From positions 1 through 33,821 of the forward strand of contig JALHMG010000051.1 of the NCBI GenBank assembly GCA_022844135.1: a DNA stretch of 33,821 nucleotides. Direction: 5' to 3'. The translations under genes were made by a program, and so were the position numbers. Under the pieces are notes generated by a model. That model had not been told where the DNA came from. It saw only the letters and a list, made by a program, of their open reading frames with translations, and did not search any database. Source of the DNA: Lysobacterales bacterium (GTDB lineage Bacteria > Pseudomonadota > Gammaproteobacteria > Xanthomonadales > SZUA-5). Positions 17,592 through 29,160 of the stretch are shown one piece after another (positions within the stretch are counted from its first letter, which is position 1; each line of letters begins with the position of its first letter).

Positions 17592-17622
17592 TTGACGCAC
17601 GCCGCTTCAGCGGGGTTAGACT
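17592..17622 (+). promoter_or_regulatory. Candidate fis promoter
   Basis: TTGACG (17592-17597) and TTAGAC (17616-17621) are separated by 18 bp, 82 bases before the fis start. This is the best sigma70-like match in the 201-bp gap after the MmgE/PrpD gene; no terminator is visible in that gap. Confidence 0.4.
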
Positions 17623-17702
17623 CTCTCCCCCACCCCACACTCCATCGTCTAACGCTGCGATCAGCGGCGCGGGATGGTTTGCGTTATCGCTTGGAAATCT
17701 GC

Positions 17703-17984
17703 ATGACTGCTTTGGTGTCTCAAGATCGTACGCTTCACGAGCCGACGCGTCCGGAGTCGACATTGCGCGACGCGGCGACACGCGTGGTCAAGCGCTATTT
17801 GAACGACTTGAATGGCACGCAGTGTCGGGACCTGCATGCCTTGATGCTGAGGCAAGTGGAGAAGCCGGTCCTGGAAGAAGCGCTAAAGTTTTGCAACGGC
17901 AATCTGACGCGAGCGGCGGAGCTGCTCGGGATCACGCGTGCGACCTTGCGCAAGAAGCTGGACGAATATGGCATCGTCCACTGA
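17703..17984 (+). CDS. fis: DNA-binding protein Fis
   Basis: A nucleoid-associated protein and transcription factor that bends DNA and activates stable-RNA promoters. It has 93 residues, the usual Fis length. The C-terminal helix-turn-helix is clear: [20 protein letters not shown], then [13 protein letters not shown]. The N-terminal part (1-40) is the dimerisation and beta-hairpin region. Start ATG 17703 is chosen because it gives the family length; the frame is open upstream to 17592. The 3' end overlaps purH by 17 bases. A dusB homologue, often upstream of fis, is not present here. Confidence 0.93.
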
Positions 17985-19545
17985 ACGCATTCGATTCCGT
18001 CGGGCGCTGATCAGCGTTTCGGACAAGACCGGCGTCGTCGAACTGGCGCGTGGATTGCGCGAACATGGTGTGGAGATCTGGTCGACCGGCGGCTCTGCGG
18101 CGCTGTTGCGTCAGCACGGTATCGCTGTCGTCGACGTGAGCGACATCACCGGGTTTCCGGAGATCATGGACGGCCGTGTCAAGACGCTGCATCCGAAGAT
18201 TCACGGCGGTCTGCTGGGTCGGATCGACACCGATGCCGCAGTGATGGCTGAACACGGCATCGCGCCAATCGATCTTCTGGTCGTGAACCTTTATCCGTTT
18301 GCAGCCACCGTGGCGCGCGCCGATTGTCGCTTCGACGATGCGGTGGAGAACATCGATATCGGTGGTCCGGCGATGTTGCGTGCGGCAGCGAAGAATCATG
18401 CCCGTGTCGCCACAGTTGTCGATCCTGGCGAGTACCCCGCGCTGATTGAGGCTTTGGCAGTCGGCGGAACCACCTTGCAGCAGCGACGTGCTTTTGCAGC
18501 CGCAGCATTCGCGCACTGCGCCGGCTACGATGGCCGCGTCGCCGAGTACCTTGGTGCGCGCGCTGCCGACCCTGGCGCACCTGAAGAATTTGCCCCGACG
18601 CTGCATCTTTCGCTGCATCGCGCGGAGGCGTTGCGTTATGGCGAGAACCCGCACCAGCGCGCTGCACTGTATCTGGAGCGGCCGATATTGCCGGGCAGCA
18701 TTGGTGCGGCACATTTTCTTCAAGGCAAAGCGCTCTCGTTCAACAACATTGCCGATGCCGACGCAGCCCTGGCGTGCGTACGCGCCTTCGACGAGCCGGC
18801 GTGTGTCATCGTCAAGCACGCCAATCCATGCGGCGTTGCGGTGGCGGCCAGCTTGAGCGATGCCTATGAGCACGCGTTCGCGTGCGATCCAGTGTCGGCT
18901 TTTGGCGGCATCATCGCCTTCAATCGACCGCTGGATGGAGATACCGCGCGGGTTCTGATCGAACGACAGTTCGTTGAGGTTGTGGTCGCGCCGGCTTATC
19001 ACGATCGCGCGCTCGCCGCCTTAGCCAGCAAGCCGAATGTTCGCGTTCTTGAAGTCGGCCCGATGCAATCCTCCGCGCACGGCATGGACTTCAAACGCAT
19101 CGCCGGTGGTCTGCTGGTTCAAGACGCCGATCGCGACGAGCTGACGCCGCAGGCGCTCAAAGTCGTCACCCAGCGCGAACCCGGCGCGCAGGAAATGGCC
19201 GATCTGTTATTCGCCTGGAGAGTGGCGATGTACGTCAAGTCCAATGCCATCGTCTACGCGCACGCAGGGCGCACGATCGGCATCGGCGCGGGGCAAATGA
19301 GCCGGGTAGTCAGCGCCGAAATTGCCGGTTGGAAGGCCAGGGCCGCGAATCTTGCGGTGGCTGGCGCGGTGCTCGCATCGGATGCGTTTTTCCCATTCCG
19401 CGACGGTATCGACGCGGCAGCAAAGGTGGGAATTCGCGCTGTTGTGCAGCCCGGCGGTTCGATGCGCGATAAGGAAGTCATTGAGGCGGCCGATGAGCAT
19501 GGCATCGCCATGGTGTTTACAGGCGTTCGTCACTTCCGGCACTGA
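17968..19545 (+). CDS. purH: Bifunctional AICAR transformylase / IMP cyclohydrolase
   Basis: Does the last two steps of de novo purine synthesis in the cytosol (AICAR to FAICAR to IMP). 525 residues, the normal length. The N-terminal MGS-like IMP cyclohydrolase domain (1 to about 195) contains [42 protein letters not shown] and VVNLYPF. The transformylase domain has [28 protein letters not shown] (catalytic K-H), [13 protein letters not shown] and KSNAIVYA, and ends [11 protein letters not shown] 17968 lies inside fis, so the two are translationally linked. The 3' end overlaps the convergent diguanylate cyclase gene by 29 bases. Confidence 0.97.
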
Positions 19546-21298
19546 CTGGCGAAGCCAACGCTTGCTCTGACGTTTCTATCGACGTCTCGCGAAAAACTTC
19601 GACACGATCGCGCCCGGAATTTTTGGCCACATAAAGCGCCGCATCTGCCCTCATCATCAAGTCACGTAAGTTGTAACCCGCATTTGCGCTGCTGACGATT
19701 CCGAAGCTTGCGGTCAGCGAACGGCGCGCCTCGGCTGGACCATATGGGACGGTATGCAACGCCCGGCGAAAGGACTCGGCGCGCTGCAGCGCCATGTCCG
19801 CCTCGAACCTGGGCAGCAAAATCGCGAACTCCTCGCCGCCGATGCGACCGATCAACTCGCCTTTTCGCACTTGCCCGCGCAGTGCGGCGGCCGCACGTTG
19901 CAGGACCTCGTCGCCTTCGGCGTGCCCGTAGCGATCGTTGATGAGCTTGAAGTAATCCAGATCCACAAGTATCAGAACCGCGCCTTGCTGGTGCCGCTGC
20001 AGTTGCTCCAGCGCGCTCGTTACCTGTTCGACGAAATAGCGCCGATTCGAAACTTGCGTGAGCGAATCGCGTTGCGCCAGCAGCTGAAAGTGTCGGCGCA
20101 ATCGGACCGCGCGGATTGCCCAAAACAGGCCGAATGCCAGCACCGTCAGTAGCAGCGCGATGGTCAAACGCGCCGCTTGTGTGTTTTTGCTCGCAAATTC
20201 CTGCTGCAGCGTCAGCAGTTCGTTCTGCTGATTGAGACTCTCGATTTGCAGCGCGTTGGCGCGCGCCTGGAAGCGCGCCATCTGGTAGGCCAGGGCGCGC
20301 TGGCCAATATCGTTGGCGTATGCCATCTCCGTTGCCAGCAGTTGCTCATGCGCGCTGAGTGCGCCAGCGTTGTCGCCCTGCGCTTTAGCGACCAGATAAC
20401 GCACGCGCCATGCCTGGCCTAATGATTCGCTGGCGACGCCCGGCGCAACTTTGGCGATCGCACTGGCGGCGGTAGCGTCGGCGTCGGCGTATTTCTCTTG
20501 CGCCAGATACGCTTGTGCCTGAATGGTCTCGACATCGATCGCCAGGGACGGATAGCGTGTGGCGGCCATGGCTTCGGCGTGCGCCGCCAGCATCGCGAGC
20601 GCTGCCTCCGGACGATTATTGCGTAGATGCAGTCGCGCCAACTGAGCGCGCAGCAGACCCGCGAATACAGCTTCGCCATCCGTCGAGCAGCGGTCCGCCC
20701 ACTGCAGGGACTCGGGACTCACGTCTCGCAGGTCGCCCGAACGGACTTTCGCCTCGACGATCAAGAACTGGGCTCCGCATCGTGCCCACGCCTGTTCGCC
20801 CTCTTGCATCAGGCGCTGCGAGAACGCAAGGCTTTCTTTGTATTGGGCACCTTGATTGAGCAGTTGCGCAATCACGCCTAGCGCCTGATCGCGCGCCGCG
20901 CGATCAGGCATTGCGTCGACATCGTCGACCAGCAGCGTCAGATGCTCATAAGCTTCGGAATGACGCCGAGCCAACGTTAACGCGTTGAGCAAGGTTGCGC
21001 GACTGCGGAAACGCACCACTTCGTCGCCCGATTGAGCGATCAGTCGTTCGAATTCGTTGATCGCCGCGACGTAGTCGCCGGTAAAGGTGTCGCGCCATGC
21101 CAGCAGGTAGTCGAGCCTATCGCGCTGCACGGCGGTCAGTCGCGACAGATCGGCCATGATCCGGCCGATTTCCTGGTCGAAAGCTGCCATCGACGTGCGC
21201 TTGACCTCTTCTGCACGCGCCAGGCGCTCGTCGACGTCAGCGTGCGCGGGTGGCGCGAGTAGCGCGCACCCGAGCACCAGGGCCCGCCAGGTGCACAT
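19517..21298 (-). CDS. Membrane-anchored diguanylate cyclase with periplasmic TPR-like sensor
   Basis: 593 residues from ATG 21298. The signal peptide [20 protein letters not shown] is followed by an all-helical, TPR-like periplasmic region (about 20-370; [39 protein letters not shown]). One membrane helix (about 380-400, [20 protein letters not shown]) leads to a cytosolic GGDEF domain (about 410-575) with the active-site motif GGEEF in [12 protein letters not shown]. The usual RxxD product-inhibition site is RKGE here, so feedback control may be weak. The start ATG shares one base with the stop of the precursor-like peptide gene (TGATG), so it is translated with it. It should make c-di-GMP; the signal it senses is unknown. 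Confidence 0.88.
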
Positions 21299-21534
21299 CA
21301 AGCGGCGCGCTGTTTCGGCGCTTCGGGTTCGTCTTCCTGTTCTTCTTGATCTTCGTCTTTGCGGTCCGGGTCGACCGGAAAAACGGCGCAAACGACATTG
21401 TGCCGTGCGCCGAGAAGCGCTATCAGCGCGGCGCGATCGCGTTTCGCGATCGCTTCGGCAACCTCTGGTTGCACCTCACTTGACGAGCCGCCGCCGATCG
21501 CCAGCGACTCCAAATATGCGAGTGTGGAATTCAT
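21298..21534 (-). CDS. Probable split-borosin precursor peptide
   Basis: 78 residues from ATG 21534 (GGGGA about 8 bases upstream); no signal peptide. Three parts are visible: residues about 1-42, helix-prone and Ala/Leu-rich (VAEAIAKRDRAALIALLGAR), which would be the borosin-binding leader; residues 45-56, HNVVCAVFPVDP, a hydrophobic stretch with one Cys and the candidate methylated core; and residues 57-73, very acidic (DEDQEEQEDEPE), a possible follower tail. The layout resembles SonA-type substrates, and the gene lies in one transcription unit with a SonM-like methyltransferase. An in-frame TTG at 21597 would add 21 residues. The stop overlaps the start of the diguanylate cyclase gene. 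No database check was possible, so the role rests on context and layout. Confidence 0.65.
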   Translation of the reverse strand: MNSTLAYLESLAIGGGSSSEVQPEVAEAIAKRDRAALIALLGARHNVVCAVFPVDPDRKDEDQEEQEDEPEAPKQRAA

Positions 21535-21555
21535 CGATAAGTCCCCAAGTTGAGC

Positions 21556-21574
21556 GCCGGCCGACGCGGCCGGC
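21556..21574 (-). promoter_or_regulatory. GC-rich hairpin just upstream of the precursor gene
   Basis: Perfect inverted repeat GCCGGCCG-ACG-CGGCCGGC in the 81-bp gap between the GNAT gene and the precursor ATG (21534). No T-run follows on the minus strand, so it is not a classical terminator. A hairpin here could stabilise or separate the precursor part of the mRNA, or slow polymerase. Confidence 0.5.
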
Positions 21575-21615
21575 GGCACAGAATAGTCTGTTTCCAACTG
21601 CGCTGGCAGAATTGT

Positions 21616-22062
21616 TTACACGGGCAGCCTGACATAGCGCGCGAGAGACTCTGCTGAGTCTGCGCGGGCGAATCCATGGCGCTCGGCCAGTTTGCGCATG
21701 GCGACGTTTTCCTCGGCCGTGCGAATCAATAGGGGCGCCGAGGCGATCGGGGGTTCGCTCAACCAAAGGGCGAACGCACGAGTAGCAAGGCGATGGCCCC
21801 AGTGGGCTGGAAGCAGCATCAAGCCGATCTCAAGCCACGCGCCGCGACGGTCGGCACTCAGCAATACACGCGGCTGACCCTCCAGCGCTGCAATATGGCG
21901 ACAGCGCCTGCGGATGGCGGCGCGAAAACTCGCGAGCGCCGCCGACGGCGACAGCGGCGCCGCGACAAAGCGCATTGTCAGCTCGTCGCTGTACAAGGCC
22001 ACGTAGAACGCCTCGTCGCTTTCGGCCAATGGCCGCAGAGTCAAACGCAATTGGTCACTCAT
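21616..22062 (-). CDS. GNAT-family N-acetyltransferase
   Basis: 148 residues. Acetyl-CoA-dependent acyltransferase fold of the RimJ-like GNAT type: LRLTLRPLAESDEAFYVALY at the start, LEIGLMLLPAHWGHRLATRAF (residues about 76-96, the pyrophosphate-binding region, with G-H-R-L-A in place of the usual Q-x-x-G-x-A), and ENVAMRKLAERHGF (about 118-131), a family hallmark. The ATG overlaps the methyltransferase stop (ATGA), so the two are co-translated. In this setting it may acetylate the methylated peptide or its processed N-terminus, but a housekeeping substrate cannot be excluded. Confidence 0.82.
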   Translation of the reverse strand: MSDQLRLTLRPLAESDEAFYVALYSDELTMRFVAAPLSPSAALASFRAAIRRRCRHIAALEGQPRVLLSADRRGAWLEIGLMLLPAHWGHRLATRAFALWLSEPPIASAPLLIRTAEENVAMRKLAERHGFARADSAESLARYVRLPV

Positions 22063-22832
22063 AACGCGTCGAGCTGGTCTAGCGCCTGGCGAACCGCGGC
22101 ATTGCGACGCAGCGGTTGCGCGGGCGGCAGTACGAGCGTATCCGGCAACTCAATATGCGCGTCCGGCAAGTCGCATAAGCGCAAGCTCTCTCGCCGCGGC
22201 GTGTCGATTGGCAACGTCGCAGCGCGATAGAGCAGGCAGCGGTGGTCGCGCGGGTAGGTTTGTGCCAACACATCTACAAGGAGCTGCCGATAAGCGGCGC
22301 CAGTGGCCAGTCTGGTCAACGTGCGATCACCGGCCATCGCTACCTGCCAGACGACGAGGTACGCCGTTGCATCGATACGACGATCGTAAATCATCAGTTG
22401 CGTGGCCTCGTAGTGCTGGCAGCCGAACTCCCCGGGATCGATCCCCAAGTCGGCATACAAACAATCGGCCGCGGATACACCTGCTTCCATCGATGCCGCA
22501 ATGCCTTGTTCACGCGCGCGGCGCAGAACTTCATGCGCCACCCAAGCGAATACGCCGGGGTGGCCGTAGAACGCCGCACATACATCTTTGCCGCTCCGTG
22601 CGGCTTCGAGAATGTCCTCGACCATCGCTTCATACCCAATCTTCCGCGATCGGCCCGGAACGTAGTGCGGTTGCAGGCTTCGGGTATTTGCATTCAAGGT
22701 TGCCAGCCATAACTCGACGATCCCGTCGGACACATTGCTGAAAACGATGTCGGCTCTTTCGATCAGGTGCCGTGCGCGTGGCGTCAGGTGCGCGCCCAGC
22801 AGCATGCCGATACCGACACATGAAATCGCCAT
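22059..22832 (-). CDS. SonM-like split-borosin peptide alpha-N-methyltransferase
   Basis: 257 residues from ATG 22832, with GGAGG about 12 bases upstream. Tetrapyrrole-methylase fold: CVGIGMLLGAHLTPRA (5-20), AAFYGHPGVFAWVAHEVLRR (86-105), EAGVSAADCLYADLGIDPG (116-134), CQHYEATQLMIYDRRI (138-153), VVWQVAMAGD (160-169). This is the pattern of borosin enzymes (fungal OphMA N-terminal domain, Shewanella SonM), which methylate backbone amides of a peptide using SAM. Tyr57, Arg63 and Tyr67 align by eye with the Tyr, Arg and Tyr reported as active-site residues in that family. Unlike OphMA the substrate is not fused; a candidate lies two genes downstream. Uroporphyrinogen or precorrin methylases share the fold but not the YGHPGVF and ADLGIDPG motifs. 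First gene of a four-gene unit. Confidence 0.85.
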   Translation of the reverse strand: MAISCVGIGMLLGAHLTPRARHLIERADIVFSNVSDGIVELWLATLNANTRSLQPHYVPGRSRKIGYEAMVEDILEAARSGKDVCAAFYGHPGVFAWVAHEVLRRAREQGIAASMEAGVSAADCLYADLGIDPGEFGCQHYEATQLMIYDRRIDATAYLVVWQVAMAGDRTLTRLATGAAYRQLLVDVLAQTYPRDHRCLLYRAATLPIDTPRRESLRLCDLPDAHIELPDTLVLPPAQPLRRNAAVRQALDQLDAL

Positions 22833-24678: not shown

Positions 24679-27600
24679 ATGACCGACCGTCTCACTGCTG
24701 CACTGATTTGCGTGTGCATGGCGCTTTTGTTTGCATGGCCGGGATCGGTGCACAGTGTCGAGCGCGATTTGGTGTTCCGCCAGTTGTCGGCCGAGCGTGG
24801 CTTGTATCAGTCAACCATTTCCGCGCTCGCGCAAGATCGCACTGGCTTCATCTGGATCGGCACGCAGTCGGGGCTTCATCGATTCGATGGCCAGGCCATC
24901 GAGTTCATTCGCATGACCGAGGATCCTGGAGCACCCGCCGAGCCGTTCGTGTCGGCACTGGCCAGCGATGGCGCCGAAGGCCTCTACGTCGGAACAGCGA
25001 CGGCAGGCGTGGCGCGCCTGGATCTGAGAACGCTGAGATTCGAATCGTTGCCGCCTACCGCTCATCTCGACGCCAAGCGCGCTCAGCAGGTCTTTCAGCT
25101 CATCGTCGATGAACGCGGCGATTTGTGGATCGCCAGCCATGCAGGTCTGGAGTATGTCGAAAGAAGCGCGAATCGGCGCCAGGTCGTTTGGACGCCGGCG
25201 AAACAAGGCTCCGCACTCGGGACTCGGTCCATGGTTGCTATGGCGGCAAGCGACATCGGCATGGTTGTCGCGGTCGGCATGAAACTACTGCAAGTCGTGC
25301 CAGGGCAAGAGCCCGCAGTCCTACTGGATGGTGAAGTGGGAATGATCGAGGCAATCGCAGCGCGAAAGCGGGGCGGCGTCTGGATCAAGTCTTCTCGCGG
25401 CCTGTACTCTTTCAATCGCGGCGCTAGTCGGCTTGTCGCCACCATCAACGCCCAAGCAAGCTCTTCCGTCGTCGTTTCGAATCTGCTCGATGATGGGCGG
25501 GATGGCGTTTGGTATGGATTGAGCGGTCATGGCCTGCTGCGGGTCGACACGGAGCGCGGACTCACGCGGTGGTTCCGCGGCGACAAAGGCGTGCCGGGCA
25601 CGCTTCCGGCCGACAACATCACGGTGTTGGCGCTCGATGCCAGTGGGCTGCTCTGGGCCGGAACCGAATACAGCGGCGTTTGGACAGCGCCCAGCGAGGG
25701 CAGCAGGTTTCGCTTGATACTGGACCATCCTGCGATTTCCGTACCAATCAGCGGCAACAATGTGCGCGCGCTGGCGGCGCGGGGCGACGCGATCTACATC
25801 GGCACTGAGGGTCAGGGTCTGAAGCGGTTGCACTGGCGTTTGGACTACATCGAAGACCTCTCGCCGTGGCTGGCTCTCGCACTGACCGATGCCGGGTTTG
25901 CGTACCCCGCTGAGATTCGCGTGCACGGATTGCGATTTGCGCCTGGCGGCGAGCTCTGGGCAGCCACCTCGGAAGGCGCATTCGCTCTGGACCTCGAAGC
26001 CGAGACCGCGCGCCTTGCCCCGATGCATCGGGATCTGCCGGCTGGCCCGCTGCAGAGATTCGTACGCAACGTGCTCTTCGATGGCGATTGGATTTGGTTC
26101 GGTACCCAGGCGCACGGCGTTTTGCGTTGCGATCGTGAGGCGAGCCATTGTCGGCAGTTCCGCGCCGAGGCGCGCCCAGGTTCGTTGTCCAATGACCTGA
26201 TACTGATGCTCGAAAAGGATGTCACTGGACGAATCTGGGCGGGCACGCTGGATGGACTGAATCGCTACGATCCCAATAGCGATCGATGGATCGTTTTCGA
26301 TCAGGACGACGGTCTGCCAAGCGCCGTAGTGCGATCTCTTATCAGCACTGAAGAGGGGGCGATCTTCGTCGGCACGCACGGCGGTTTGGCGCGCCTTCAG
26401 GGCGACCGTTTTGTGCATGACTTCAGGGTCAATGACGTCCCCGATCCCACTGTTTATGCGATGGCCGAAGACCCACAGGGAATTCTCTGGTTGTCGGGCA
26501 ATCGCGGATTGGTTGCCTACTCTCCCGATGGCAGCAGCGTGCTGCGATTTGGCCCCGAAGATGGACTGCAGGGATTCGAGTTCAACGGCGGTTCGGTGAC
26601 CGCGATTGATAACGAGTTGTTGTTCGGGGGCGTTGGTGGCATCAATGCGTTCGAGCCGGCGAAGGTGCGGGTGTCGAGTTACACAGCGCCCCTGGCCGTG
26701 ACTGCCTGGTCGATAGACGGTGCCGCTGGTGCGCCACTGGTGCCTGGCGAGCCGCTCGCCCTGGCCGCGCATCAGAGGCAGATCAGTCTGTCATTCAGCG
26801 CGCTCGATTTTCGCGCGCCCTCTCGCAACCGCTATGCGCACCGACTGCTCGGATTCGACGATCAATGGGTCGAGGGCGTGGGGCGCGGTCATGTGAATCT
26901 GACCAATCTTGCGCCCGGCAGTTACACGCTGCAATTGCGCGCCAGCAACAGCGATGGCGTATGGAATGCCGACATAGTCGAGATTCCAGTGGTCGTCGCG
27001 TCGCCTTGGTGGGCCACGCCACAAGCACGGCTGATCTATGCGCTGCTGGCGGTTTGCGGCTTGACGTTGGCCTACATCGGATTCAATCGGCGCCGACAGC
27101 GGCGGCGCGCGTACATCGAGGCTTTACGCCTTCGGGAAGACCGATTGAAACTGAGTCTGTGGGGGTCCGGGGACGGGTTCTGGGATTGGGATTTGCAATC
27201 GAATCAAATCCATCGCGACGGTCTCGACCGCATCTTGGGTCTTGCCGACAGCGAAATGGTGATGGACATCGGCGATTGGAAAGCCGGAGAGGTTCATCCC
27301 GACGATTTGCCCAAAGTCAACGAGCGCATTTTCCGCCACGTGCATGGCCAGACCGAGCATTACGAATCCGAGCATCGCCTTCGAGCGGCGAACGGCGAAT
27401 GGGTCTGGGTGCTTGCGCGCGGTAAAGTTGTCGAACGCGATGCTGCCGGGAATGCGCGTCGCGTCGCGGGAACCGTTCGAAACATCGAGCCGCAAAGGCG
27501 CGCGCAACACGAGGCCCGCATCGCCACCGAGGTGATTCGTACCATGAGCGAAGCGGTCGCCGTGCTCGACGAATCATTTTGCTTTCAACAGTGCAATCTC

Positions 27601-29160
27601 GCTTTCGAGCGCGCCAGCGGCTTTGTGGCCAGCGAACTGCGCGGATTACCCTGGTCGACATTCGACAGCAATAAACATGATCCCGCGTTCTACCGTCTGC
27701 GGCGCGATGCGTTGATGAAACATGGTCGCTGGCGCGGCGAATGTTGGCAGCGAGATCGAAAGGGCGACGAATACCTGTTTGCAGTCGATGCCATCCTGAC
27801 TCGCGAGCGCGAAACCGACGCGCCATATGTCGTGCTCGTGCAGAACGACATTACGGCACGCAAACTGGCCGAAGTGGAACTTCGCCATCTCGCCAGCTTC
27901 GATCAGTTGACCGGGTTGGCCAACCGTACCGCGCTGATGCAGGAGCTCCATCAGCGACTGAGCGAAGCGCGTGTGCGCGGTGCGCCAATTGCAATGTTGT
28001 TTATCGATCTCGATCGATTCAAGCAAATCAATGACAGCCTGGGTCACGCTGCGGGCGACGAGCTTCTGCGCGCCGTAGGCCAGCGCCTGGTCAGTCATCT
28101 TCCACAGTTGGCCTTCGTTGCTCGGCAGGGTGGCGATGAGTTCATCGTTTTGCTGGACGACAGTGCTGGAGCTCGACAGGCCAGCGACGTTGCCCACCGC
28201 TTGTTGGCTGCTTTCGCAGCGCCGCTGCAGATTCGCGGCAGCGACGTCAAAATCACGCCCAGTGTCGGCATTTCGCTTTATCCGGAGCACGCCGACAATG
28301 CCGAGGATCTGATGCGGTTTGCTGATGCCGCGATGTATGCGGCGAAAAGCGAAGGCCGCAATACTGTTGTCGTCTTCCGCAACGAGTTGGCGAGTCACGG
28401 CAAGTTGCGTTTGGAATTGGAGCACAGCGTCCGTCGCGGACCGGACTTTGCAGACTTTGAGGTTCACTATCAGCCAATATTGCGGCTAAGCGATCGCCAG
28501 CCGATCGCCGTTGAAGCTCTACTGCGTTGGCGTACAGCGGACGGACAAGTGTCGCCCACCGTGTTCGTTCCGTTGCTTGAGGAAAGCGGCTCGATCATTG
28601 AGGTAGGGCGCTTCGTGCTGCACGAAGCCTTGAGACAAGTTGCGCACTGGCGCCGAAGTCGCCCGGAATTCCGCGTTGCGGTGAACTTGTCGACGCTGCA
28701 GTTGTTGCGGTCCGAATTGACCAGCGAAATCCGTCACGCGCTCGAAGCGGCTGGTGTGCCAGGCAGCGCATTGGAGCTCGAACTGACCGAGACGTTGCTG
28801 ATGAGCAACCCCGAACAAGCAATTCTTACGCTCAGCGAGCTCAAGGCGCTGGGGGTGATCATAGCCGTAGACGATTTTGGCACCGGATATTCGTCGCTCA
28901 GCTACCTGAAACGATTGCCGATCGATAAGCTCAAGATCGACCGCGAGTTCATTCGCGACTTGATAGAAGATCCCGACGATGCGGTGATCGTAGAGACGAT
29001 GTTGGCGATGGCGCAAGCACTGAAGATTCGGGCTACAGCCGAAGGCGTCGAGAATGAGGCGCAGCTGGCGTTCTTGGCCGAACATGGTTGCCAGGAGGCG
29101 CAGGGTTTCCTTTTTAGCCGGCCACTGCCGGCTGCGGCGCTTTGGCCGGCCGCGGAGTAG
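24679..29160 (+). CDS. Large sensor: periplasmic propeller, Y_Y_Y domain, PAS-PAS-GGDEF-EAL
   Basis: 1493 residues. Signal peptide 1-26, then about 650 residues of two-component-regulator propeller repeats (GFIWIGTQSGLHRFDG; GVWYGLSGHGLLRVD; GRIWAGTLDGLNRYD) and a Y_Y_Y domain (about 690-780, LSFSALDFRAPSRNRYAHRL). One membrane helix (about 785-803) is followed by two PAS domains (about 815-950 and 955-1065), a GGDEF domain (about 1070-1230, exact GGDEF in RQGGDEFIVLL, no RxxD site in front of it) and an EAL domain (about 1235-1490: EALLRW, ELTETLL, DDFGTGYSSL, AEGVE). Both catalytic motifs look intact, so it may make or degrade c-di-GMP depending on an extracellular signal. Propellers of this type often sense carbohydrates. 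The ligand here is unknown. Confidence 0.93.
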   Translation: MTDRLTAALICVCMALLFAWPGSVHSVERDLVFRQLSAERGLYQSTISALAQDRTGFIWIGTQSGLHRFDGQAIEFIRMTEDPGAPAEPFVSALASDGAEGLYVGTATAGVARLDLRTLRFESLPPTAHLDAKRAQQVFQLIVDERGDLWIASHAGLEYVERSANRRQVVWTPAKQGSALGTRSMVAMAASDIGMVVAVGMKLLQVVPGQEPAVLLDGEVGMIEAIAARKRGGVWIKSSRGLYSFNRGASRLVATINAQASSSVVVSNLLDDGRDGVWYGLSGHGLLRVDTERGLTRWFRGDKGVPGTLPADNITVLALDASGLLWAGTEYSGVWTAPSEGSRFRLILDHPAISVPISGNNVRALAARGDAIYIGTEGQGLKRLHWRLDYIEDLSPWLALALTDAGFAYPAEIRVHGLRFAPGGELWAATSEGAFALDLEAETARLAPMHRDLPAGPLQRFVRNVLFDGDWIWFGTQAHGVLRCDREASHCRQFRAEARPGSLSNDLILMLEKDVTGRIWAGTLDGLNRYDPNSDRWIVFDQDDGLPSAVVRSLISTEEGAIFVGTHGGLARLQGDRFVHDFRVNDVPDPTVYAMAEDPQGILWLSGNRGLVAYSPDGSSVLRFGPEDGLQGFEFNGGSVTAIDNELLFGGVGGINAFEPAKVRVSSYTAPLAVTAWSIDGAAGAPLVPGEPLALAAHQRQISLSFSALDFRAPSRNRYAHRLLGFDDQWVEGVGRGHVNLTNLAPGSYTLQLRASNSDGVWNADIVEIPVVVASPWWATPQARLIYALLAVCGLTLAYIGFNRRRQRRRAYIEALRLREDRLKLSLWGSGDGFWDWDLQSNQIHRDGLDRILGLADSEMVMDIGDWKAGEVHPDDLPKVNERIFRHVHGQTEHYESEHRLRAANGEWVWVLARGKVVERDAAGNARRVAGTVRNIEPQRRAQHEARIATEVIRTMSEAVAVLDESFCFQQCNLAFERASGFVASELRGLPWSTFDSNKHDPAFYRLRRDALMKHGRWRGECWQRDRKGDEYLFAVDAILTRERETDAPYVVLVQNDITARKLAEVELRHLASFDQLTGLANRTALMQELHQRLSEARVRGAPIAMLFIDLDRFKQINDSLGHAAGDELLRAVGQRLVSHLPQLAFVARQGGDEFIVLLDDSAGARQASDVAHRLLAAFAAPLQIRGSDVKITPSVGISLYPEHADNAEDLMRFADAAMYAAKSEGRNTVVVFRNELASHGKLRLELEHSVRRGPDFADFEVHYQPILRLSDRQPIAVEALLRWRTADGQVSPTVFVPLLEESGSIIEVGRFVLHEALRQVAHWRRSRPEFRVAVNLSTLQLLRSELTSEIRHALEAAGVPGSALELELTETLLMSNPEQAILTLSELKALGVIIAVDDFGTGYSSLSYLKRLPIDKLKIDREFIRDLIEDPDDAVIVETMLAMAQALKIRATAEGVENEAQLAFLAEHGCQEAQGFLFSRPLPAAALWPAAE

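Follow-up and report, generated by a model that had tools for sequence, protein, structure and literature searches.

The GNAT acetyltransferase gene at positions 21616 to 22062 of the window (the whole stretch of 33,821 nucleotides that was analysed, from a Lysobacterales bacterium) probably encodes a second, pathway-dedicated tailoring enzyme for a split borosin of the SonM/SonA type, and the enzyme would cap a leader-freed, methylated peptide acting through a co-encoded TPR-GGDEF protein. Gene anatomy, family membership, fold, conserved linkage and co-occurrence of the GNAT with borosin genes are direct observations on this locus and its relatives. To our knowledge, bacterial borosins have few known products or functions, and a passage of PMC8429565 says the same of type IV borosins. 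We describe a form of the split borosin pathway in which a second enzyme, probably one that transfers an acyl group, is conserved; a candidate protease is present in half of the GNAT-bearing genomes, and a signalling partner is encoded alongside. With a conserved second tailoring enzyme the product can be predicted concretely as a capped N-methyl peptide. A protease family nested in GNAT-bearing genomes suggests a way in which the cap site would become free, and the TPR-GGDEF partner points to c-di-GMP as the target. The excerpts of the literature on borosins and acetyltransferases that were consulted place no GNAT in a borosin cluster; the main surveys may mention one.

The borosin locus and its acetyltransferase

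The features on which the argument depends are as follows.

22059..22832, minus strand: SonM-like borosin alpha-N-methyltransferase, 257 aa, PF00590, identified by its match to SonM
21616..22062, minus strand: GNAT acetyltransferase (PF13302), 148 aa, intact frame, identified by Pfam, fold and linkage; proposed borosin-peptide N-acyltransferase
21298..21534, minus strand: borosin precursor, 78 aa from its ATG; residues 1-45 form the leader, with similarity to the borosin-binding domain (BBD), and residues 46-78 the core and acidic tail
21301..21399, minus strand: predicted core and tail NVVCAVFPVDPDRKDEDQEEQEDEPEAPKQRAA, residues 46-78, from comparison of GNAT-linked precursors; putative boundary
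19517..21298, minus strand: TPR, membrane helix and GGDEF diguanylate cyclase, 593 aa, GGEEF intact, signal-peptide-like start; ATGA overlap with the precursor

The four genes are closely spaced on one strand. The methyltransferase TGA (22061-22059) overlaps the GNAT ATG (22062-22060) in a common ATGA, and the precursor ATG lies at 21534 on the minus strand, 81 nt past the GNAT stop, so that both the overlap and the position of the GNAT ahead of the precursor, as given in the preliminary description, can be read directly from the sequence. The precursor stop and the TPR-GGDEF ATG (21298) overlap as ATGA as well, a link to a diguanylate cyclase that was absent from that description. The gap between GNAT and precursor (21535-21615, minus strand) contains a GC-rich inverted repeat, for which we do not claim an RNA hairpin (fold z of only -1.38), and a promoter scan found 0 candidates against 1.0 in shuffles. 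Elsewhere in the window, an ORF that we take to be Fis-like is followed by purH (PF01808) at 17592-19545 on the plus strand, both ordinary genes, and a 1493-aa sensor protein is encoded at 24679-29160 (plus strand); its start matches Reg_prop and Y_Y_Y and its end carries, by eye, GGDEF and EAL motifs, making it a second c-di-GMP gene near the cluster.

The window methyltransferase is a discrete protein that matches SonM (7ltc_A) with an E value of 1e-68, and SonM active-site residues Y58, R67, Y71 and Y93, which a section of PMC8429565 lists as mutated in SonM, are all conserved in the alignment. The precursor is likewise separate and carries an N-terminal borosin-binding domain, as a profile of 12 precursors with the window precursor first (A3) matches SonA (8t1s_B, E 4.2e-6; 7ltc_B, E 6.2e-6) over this domain, at profile positions 1-58. 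Judged from these sequence matches, the borosin setting of the window GNAT is sound, and backbone N-methylation of the core is predicted from the family membership of the methyltransferase. The likeness to SonM/SonA, the type IV split borosin of Shewanella oneidensis (PMC8429565), thus consists of a separate methyltransferase and a precursor matching the SonA binding domain, whereas the window unit also includes a GNAT and a TPR-GGDEF gene that overlaps the precursor, and its core combines a hydrophobic run with Pro and an acidic tail.

The window protein belongs to the GNAT superfamily by both profile and fold: it matches PF13302 with an E value of 3.8e-15 and 57.2 bits, above the Pfam cut-off of 25.4, and its AlphaFold2 model (mean pLDDT 95.4) has the GNAT fold, with a match to 3fbu_A (Z 17.9, rmsd 2.1, 143 residues aligned). 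Foldseek with the same model returned a broad list of GNATs, and NCBIfam models gave no match to the protein. By sequence profile and fold together the nearest relatives are SpeG (Z 17.2), PA3944 (Z 17.2) and RimL (Z 16.7), and the SpeG model was weakly matched by 21 of 36 GNAT family rows (E up to 0.01). SpeG acts on polyamine and RimL on a ribosomal protein. PA3944 is described in part of PMC8072286 as acting on polymyxin. A lasso-peptide acetyltransferase, 9iy3, is found among the structural neighbours too (Z 15.4, rmsd 2.5 over 145 residues, 20% identity), so that PA3944, RimL and 9iy3 represent peptide or N-terminal acetyltransferases in this set; because the polyamine enzyme SpeG is structurally as close, the fold does not pick the substrate.

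A competent GNAT that uses acetyl-CoA would be expected to carry Gly at the second position of the acyl-CoA pyrophosphate loop. The corresponding loop of the window protein, GHRLA (residues 89-93), had been called atypical, and it is unusual even within its own family, with Arg91 replacing a Gly found in 29 of the 36 aligned rows. The further step, from GHRLA to a different acyl donor, was weak: Gly occupies both loop positions in only 19/36 rows, and with a loop this variable within the family another donor is unsupported. Judging from the alignment, GHRLA may instead reflect weak CoA binding or reduced activity, and we regard it as a warning on activity in this genus, not as the sign of another donor. 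The protein departs from the consensus of the 36 rows at V66 (G in 33), R91, M122 (A in 31) and Y143 (W in 31), and is only 33-36% identical to the GNAT of a same-genus relative though their methyltransferases are 73% identical; owing to these residues and this low identity, the window copy may be impaired.

Linkage of the acetyltransferase to borosin genes

A methyltransferase search of 151 related genomes gave matches in 71, one of them weak, and a class-wide search gave matches in 13 of 369 genomes (3 weak). Around the methyltransferase matches, plus a few others, 94 regions were fetched, 89 of which contain a methyltransferase, and a tree was built from 87 of these loci, two broken ones being left out. 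In this tree the TPR-linked methyltransferases form one clade of 62 loci (L071-L132, support 97). A GNAT is present on the same strand in 31 of the 62, within 400 bp of the methyltransferase in 28, and in none of the 25 loci outside the clade; the remaining 31 clade loci lack a GNAT in the fetched stretch. Mapped on the tree, the GNAT label requires 6 changes, where shuffled labels require 25.8 on average, which means that the gene has been inherited in blocks and that the 31 loci are not 31 independent events.

Stronger evidence for linkage comes from varied gene order, extra units, a fusion and three new profile matches. The order is GNAT, methyltransferase, TPR-GGDEF in 15 loci and methyltransferase, GNAT, TPR-GGDEF in 4, while the others have extra units or contig ends. 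Across 29 loci, the distances among GNATs correlate with those of the methyltransferase (r 0.50) and of TPR-GGDEF (r 0.72), and 0 of 2000 permutations reached values as high. Second precursor and TPR-GGDEF units stand beside one methyltransferase in six loci (L116, L119, L123, L125, L126 and L128), in each of which a GNAT lies ahead of at least one unit.

With one GNAT sequence as query, the 151 genomes yielded 19 matches, spread over 17 genomes; 16 of the matches lie in methyltransferase loci, 1 beside a precursor and TPR-GGDEF only, and 2 are unlinked. The family alignment (A1) comprises 36 rows out of 41 matching ORFs, having excluded a fragment (L160), the two unlinked copies (L163 and L164) and two generic RimL-like neighbours in L088 and L097. 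As a profile, A1 gave 39 matches of at least 87.9 bits in 32 of the 151 genomes, 36 of them its own rows and 3 of them new (L173, L174, L175). A borosin-like precursor follows each new GNAT. A TPR-GGDEF gene is present too in L174 and L175, L173 reaches its contig end, and no methyltransferase was found in the fetched stretch of any of the three. The two matches that follow in score (82.9 and 81.2 bits) lack a nearby precursor, methyltransferase and TPR-GGDEF. L174 (G122:C415), with GNAT, precursor and TPR-GGDEF on a short contig, is an exception to the linkage with the methyltransferase, as no methyltransferase match was found in the assembly of its source genome.

Scanning an independent contig collection yielded three loci, all with a GNAT beside methyltransferase and TPR-GGDEF. 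L068, one of these, is taken as the contig of genome G001, and L069, from Luteimonas mephitis DSM 12574, carries GNAT, methyltransferase, precursor and TPR-GGDEF as consecutive genes. In the third, on a MAG contig, GNAT and precursor share one open frame (L070:1103-1990), whose precursor tail is rich in Lys and Pro and not acidic. Because a purine-rich stretch lies ahead of the internal ATG, the frame may yield a fused protein, a free precursor or both, and this single MAG contig may hold an error. Taken together, the proposal that the GNAT is a second borosin-dedicated enzyme is now well supported by its presence in half of the clade loci, by a precursor beside all three new profile matches and by the fused ORF; the survey for co-occurrence with SonM-like genes that had been called for revealed an association, and no borosin-free housekeeping pattern emerged.

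Acceptor site, leader removal and competing explanations

From this setting we infer the catalysis, acceptor, donor, order of steps and function of the pathway. The methyltransferase would N-methylate backbone amides in the hydrophobic precursor core, a peptidase would cut off the leader in the cytosol, and the GNAT would then move an acyl group, most simply acetyl from acetyl-CoA, onto the freed alpha-amine. The expected product is a short, capped, N-methylated, acidic peptide, which would most likely act via the co-encoded TPR-GGDEF diguanylate cyclase.

The 42 GNAT-linked precursors have a common leader, followed by a short hydrophobic run at the end. This run contains Cys in 37/42 cores, mostly with Pro and Asp/Glu next, e.g. 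DLVCVLFPDDDDEE, and the core start was set by rule three residues ahead of the last Cys, or by hand in five cases. Lys is absent from 21 of the 42 cores, which makes the alpha-amine freed by leader removal, on sequence grounds, the likeliest and simplest common acceptor. Acylation of a Lys side chain as the general reaction is thereby disfavoured for the family; the window core has two Lys, both within the tail, and its own copy is not covered by this argument. Core Cys was also considered as the determinant of GNAT presence, being found in 26/31 GNAT loci against 6/30 others (hand-scored), but it tracks the tree, with only 2 independent pairs on starred branches, too few for a link.

Known RiPP acetyltransferases provide models for either acceptor. 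GodH of goadsporin, according to part of PMC10373908, is a GNAT that acetylates the N-terminus once the leader is gone; it resembles the window GNAT as a RiPP tailoring enzyme with the same reaction as proposed here, yet belongs to another RiPP class; the two are likened by reaction. Sections of PMC9505594 and PMC10373908 describe fatty acylation of Lys or Orn side chains by selidamide GNATs such as PhaN, which share with the window GNAT their place in a RiPP cluster and differ in requiring a core Lys or Orn acceptor, a Lys of this kind being absent from the 21 Lys-free cores and represented in the window by the two tail residues. AlbT, a lasso-peptide acetyltransferase, is described as acetylating a Lys side chain (PMC8498205), and it and 9iy3 likewise belong to another RiPP class.

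A candidate for leader removal was found among the neighbours. The 31 GNAT loci supplied 105 neighbouring ORFs, each 150 aa or longer, for a Pfam scan in which 92 families were matched; among the matches listed, Peptidase_M90 occurs in 8 ORFs, the pepsin-like family PF00026 in 3, and the transporter families MFS_2 and ABC_tran in 2 each. In L105 the GNAT start coincides with the end of an ORF that resembles an ABC exporter (ABC_membrane and ABC_tran). Of the 94 fetched loci, 5 contain a homologue of the pepsin-like aspartic protease, and the GNAT-free loci contain none. In L088, L097 and L127 the protease gene immediately precedes the GNAT in the same orientation; in L114 and L162 it comes next after TPR-GGDEF and points towards the unit. 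Two D[ST]G motifs are kept in the three aligned protease rows, and in a profile comparison beta-secretases match in both of their halves (E 2.1e-16); NCBIfam models gave no match to 3 members. The protease family, which is rare in bacteria here, is present in 16 of 151 genomes, all within the 32 that bear the GNAT and spread over taxon groups f1, f2, f5, f9, f11 and f12, and in 0 of the 119 others (P 4e-13 if genomes were independent, a figure that kinship makes weaker). It is absent from the other 16 GNAT-bearing genomes, the window genome and a relative from the same genus among them. Of the 17 protease copies, 12 (L178-L189) lie away from borosin units with no unit gene nearby. A search with PF00026 itself found matches in 12 of 151 genomes and in 0 of 14 controls; G067 has a PF00026 protein and no GNAT, its protease being outside the A5 family list. 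No signal peptide was seen by eye at the N-termini of the L127 and L114 proteases, which fits cytosolic leader removal. We thus regard the pepsin-like protease as a candidate leader peptidase in about half of the GNAT-bearing genomes. This result lends slightly more trust to capping and slightly less to three of its rivals. The earlier suggestion of N-acylation after leader removal is therefore favoured by the Lys-free cores and by a protease confined to GNAT-bearing genomes (16/16), and weakened for the window by the two tail Lys and by a genome that lacks the protease family. Peptidase M90 genes, on the opposite strand in L116, L119, L123, L125, L126, L128, L129 and L131 and in none of the GNAT-free loci, may be mere chromosomal neighbours.

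Among the competing explanations, a GNAT that modifies the borosin elsewhere, at the uncut precursor N-terminus, at a leader or tail lysine or at the core cysteine, is rather unlikely, though the strongest of the four. It would make a cytosolic protease unnecessary, leaders contain lysines, most GNAT-linked cores have the cysteine, the fused frame of L070 places a GNAT ahead of an uncut precursor, and with its two tail Lys the window copy could still acylate a side chain. However, 5/42 rows have no core Cys while 6/30 scored GNAT-free loci do, the two independent pairs on the tree are few, and precursor N-termini look alike, by eye, with and without GNAT. It is improbable that the GNAT fold has turned into a non-catalytic partner or that the enzyme is decaying in this genus: the variable loop, Arg91 and the three other departures from consensus in the window would agree with this, but most rows keep Gly91 (29/36), Asn119 (31/36) and an aromatic residue at 143 (35/36), and the window gene has an intact frame and a confidently modelled product.

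We give little credence to a GNAT that serves another partner, by acetylating the TPR-GGDEF protein or by inactivating the peptide for self-protection or signal turnover. GNAT distances are closer to those of TPR-GGDEF than to those of the methyltransferase, and GNAT, precursor and TPR-GGDEF form units without a nearby methyltransferase in L162, L174 and L175; these units include the precursor too, however, and so do not separate receptor from peptide, and the clade has TPR-GGDEF both with and without GNAT. That an unrelated housekeeping GNAT stands here by chance is scarcely credible. GNATs are common, with 29 PF00583 and 11 PF13302 matches in the window genome, but about one PF13302 match per 485 kb corresponds to an estimated chance neighbour in <1% of loci, against 28/62 within 400 bp, and a chance or housekeeping neighbour is contradicted by the linkage, the profile matches and the varied gene orders. 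Capping of the freed alpha-amine by a dedicated enzyme stays the reading that we prefer.

The TPR-GGDEF partner and a tentative signalling role

TPR-GGDEF lies downstream of the methyltransferase in 58 of the 62 clade loci and is its most constant neighbour, kept with it more widely than the GNAT is. The exceptions are L103, with TPR-GGDEF upstream, L110, where none was found, L131, which ends at the precursor, and L129, which ends about 1.1 kb past it. C174, C204 and GGEEF are invariant across 46 aligned rows, the model of the window protein has a pLDDT of 92.8, and a signal peptide and a membrane helix were assigned to this protein by eye. High scores in structural comparison are common for TPR repeats. 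Most rows of the structural comparison match the GGDEF half; the TPR region matches Rap of phage Phi3T (8rsv_A, Z 23.0, rmsd 4.5, 304 residues), and other TPR proteins, such as APPBP2 (Z 24.0), match it as well as this pheromone receptor does. A GGDEF domain is already drawn among borosin architectures in the Figure 1 legend of PMC11395268, which has this domain in common with the window unit, and that legend names no GNAT.

TPR proteins serve as pheromone receptors in Gram-positive bacteria and their phages, and by analogy we tentatively suggest that GNAT, N-methyltransferase, acidic precursor and TPR diguanylate cyclase might form a Gram-negative peptide-signalling system, a possibility that we hold with considerable doubt. 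The peptide would be methylated, freed from its leader (in half of the genomes by the pepsin-like cytosolic protease), capped, exported and bound by a periplasmic TPR superhelix, with c-di-GMP as output. If this were true, each extra precursor and TPR-GGDEF unit that has a GNAT of its own would serve as a parallel channel. Outside the clade, a GGDEF domain immediately precedes the methyltransferase match in L140, L142, L146 and other loci; with methyltransferase frames of 846-863 aa, the three named loci may encode a GGDEF fusion.
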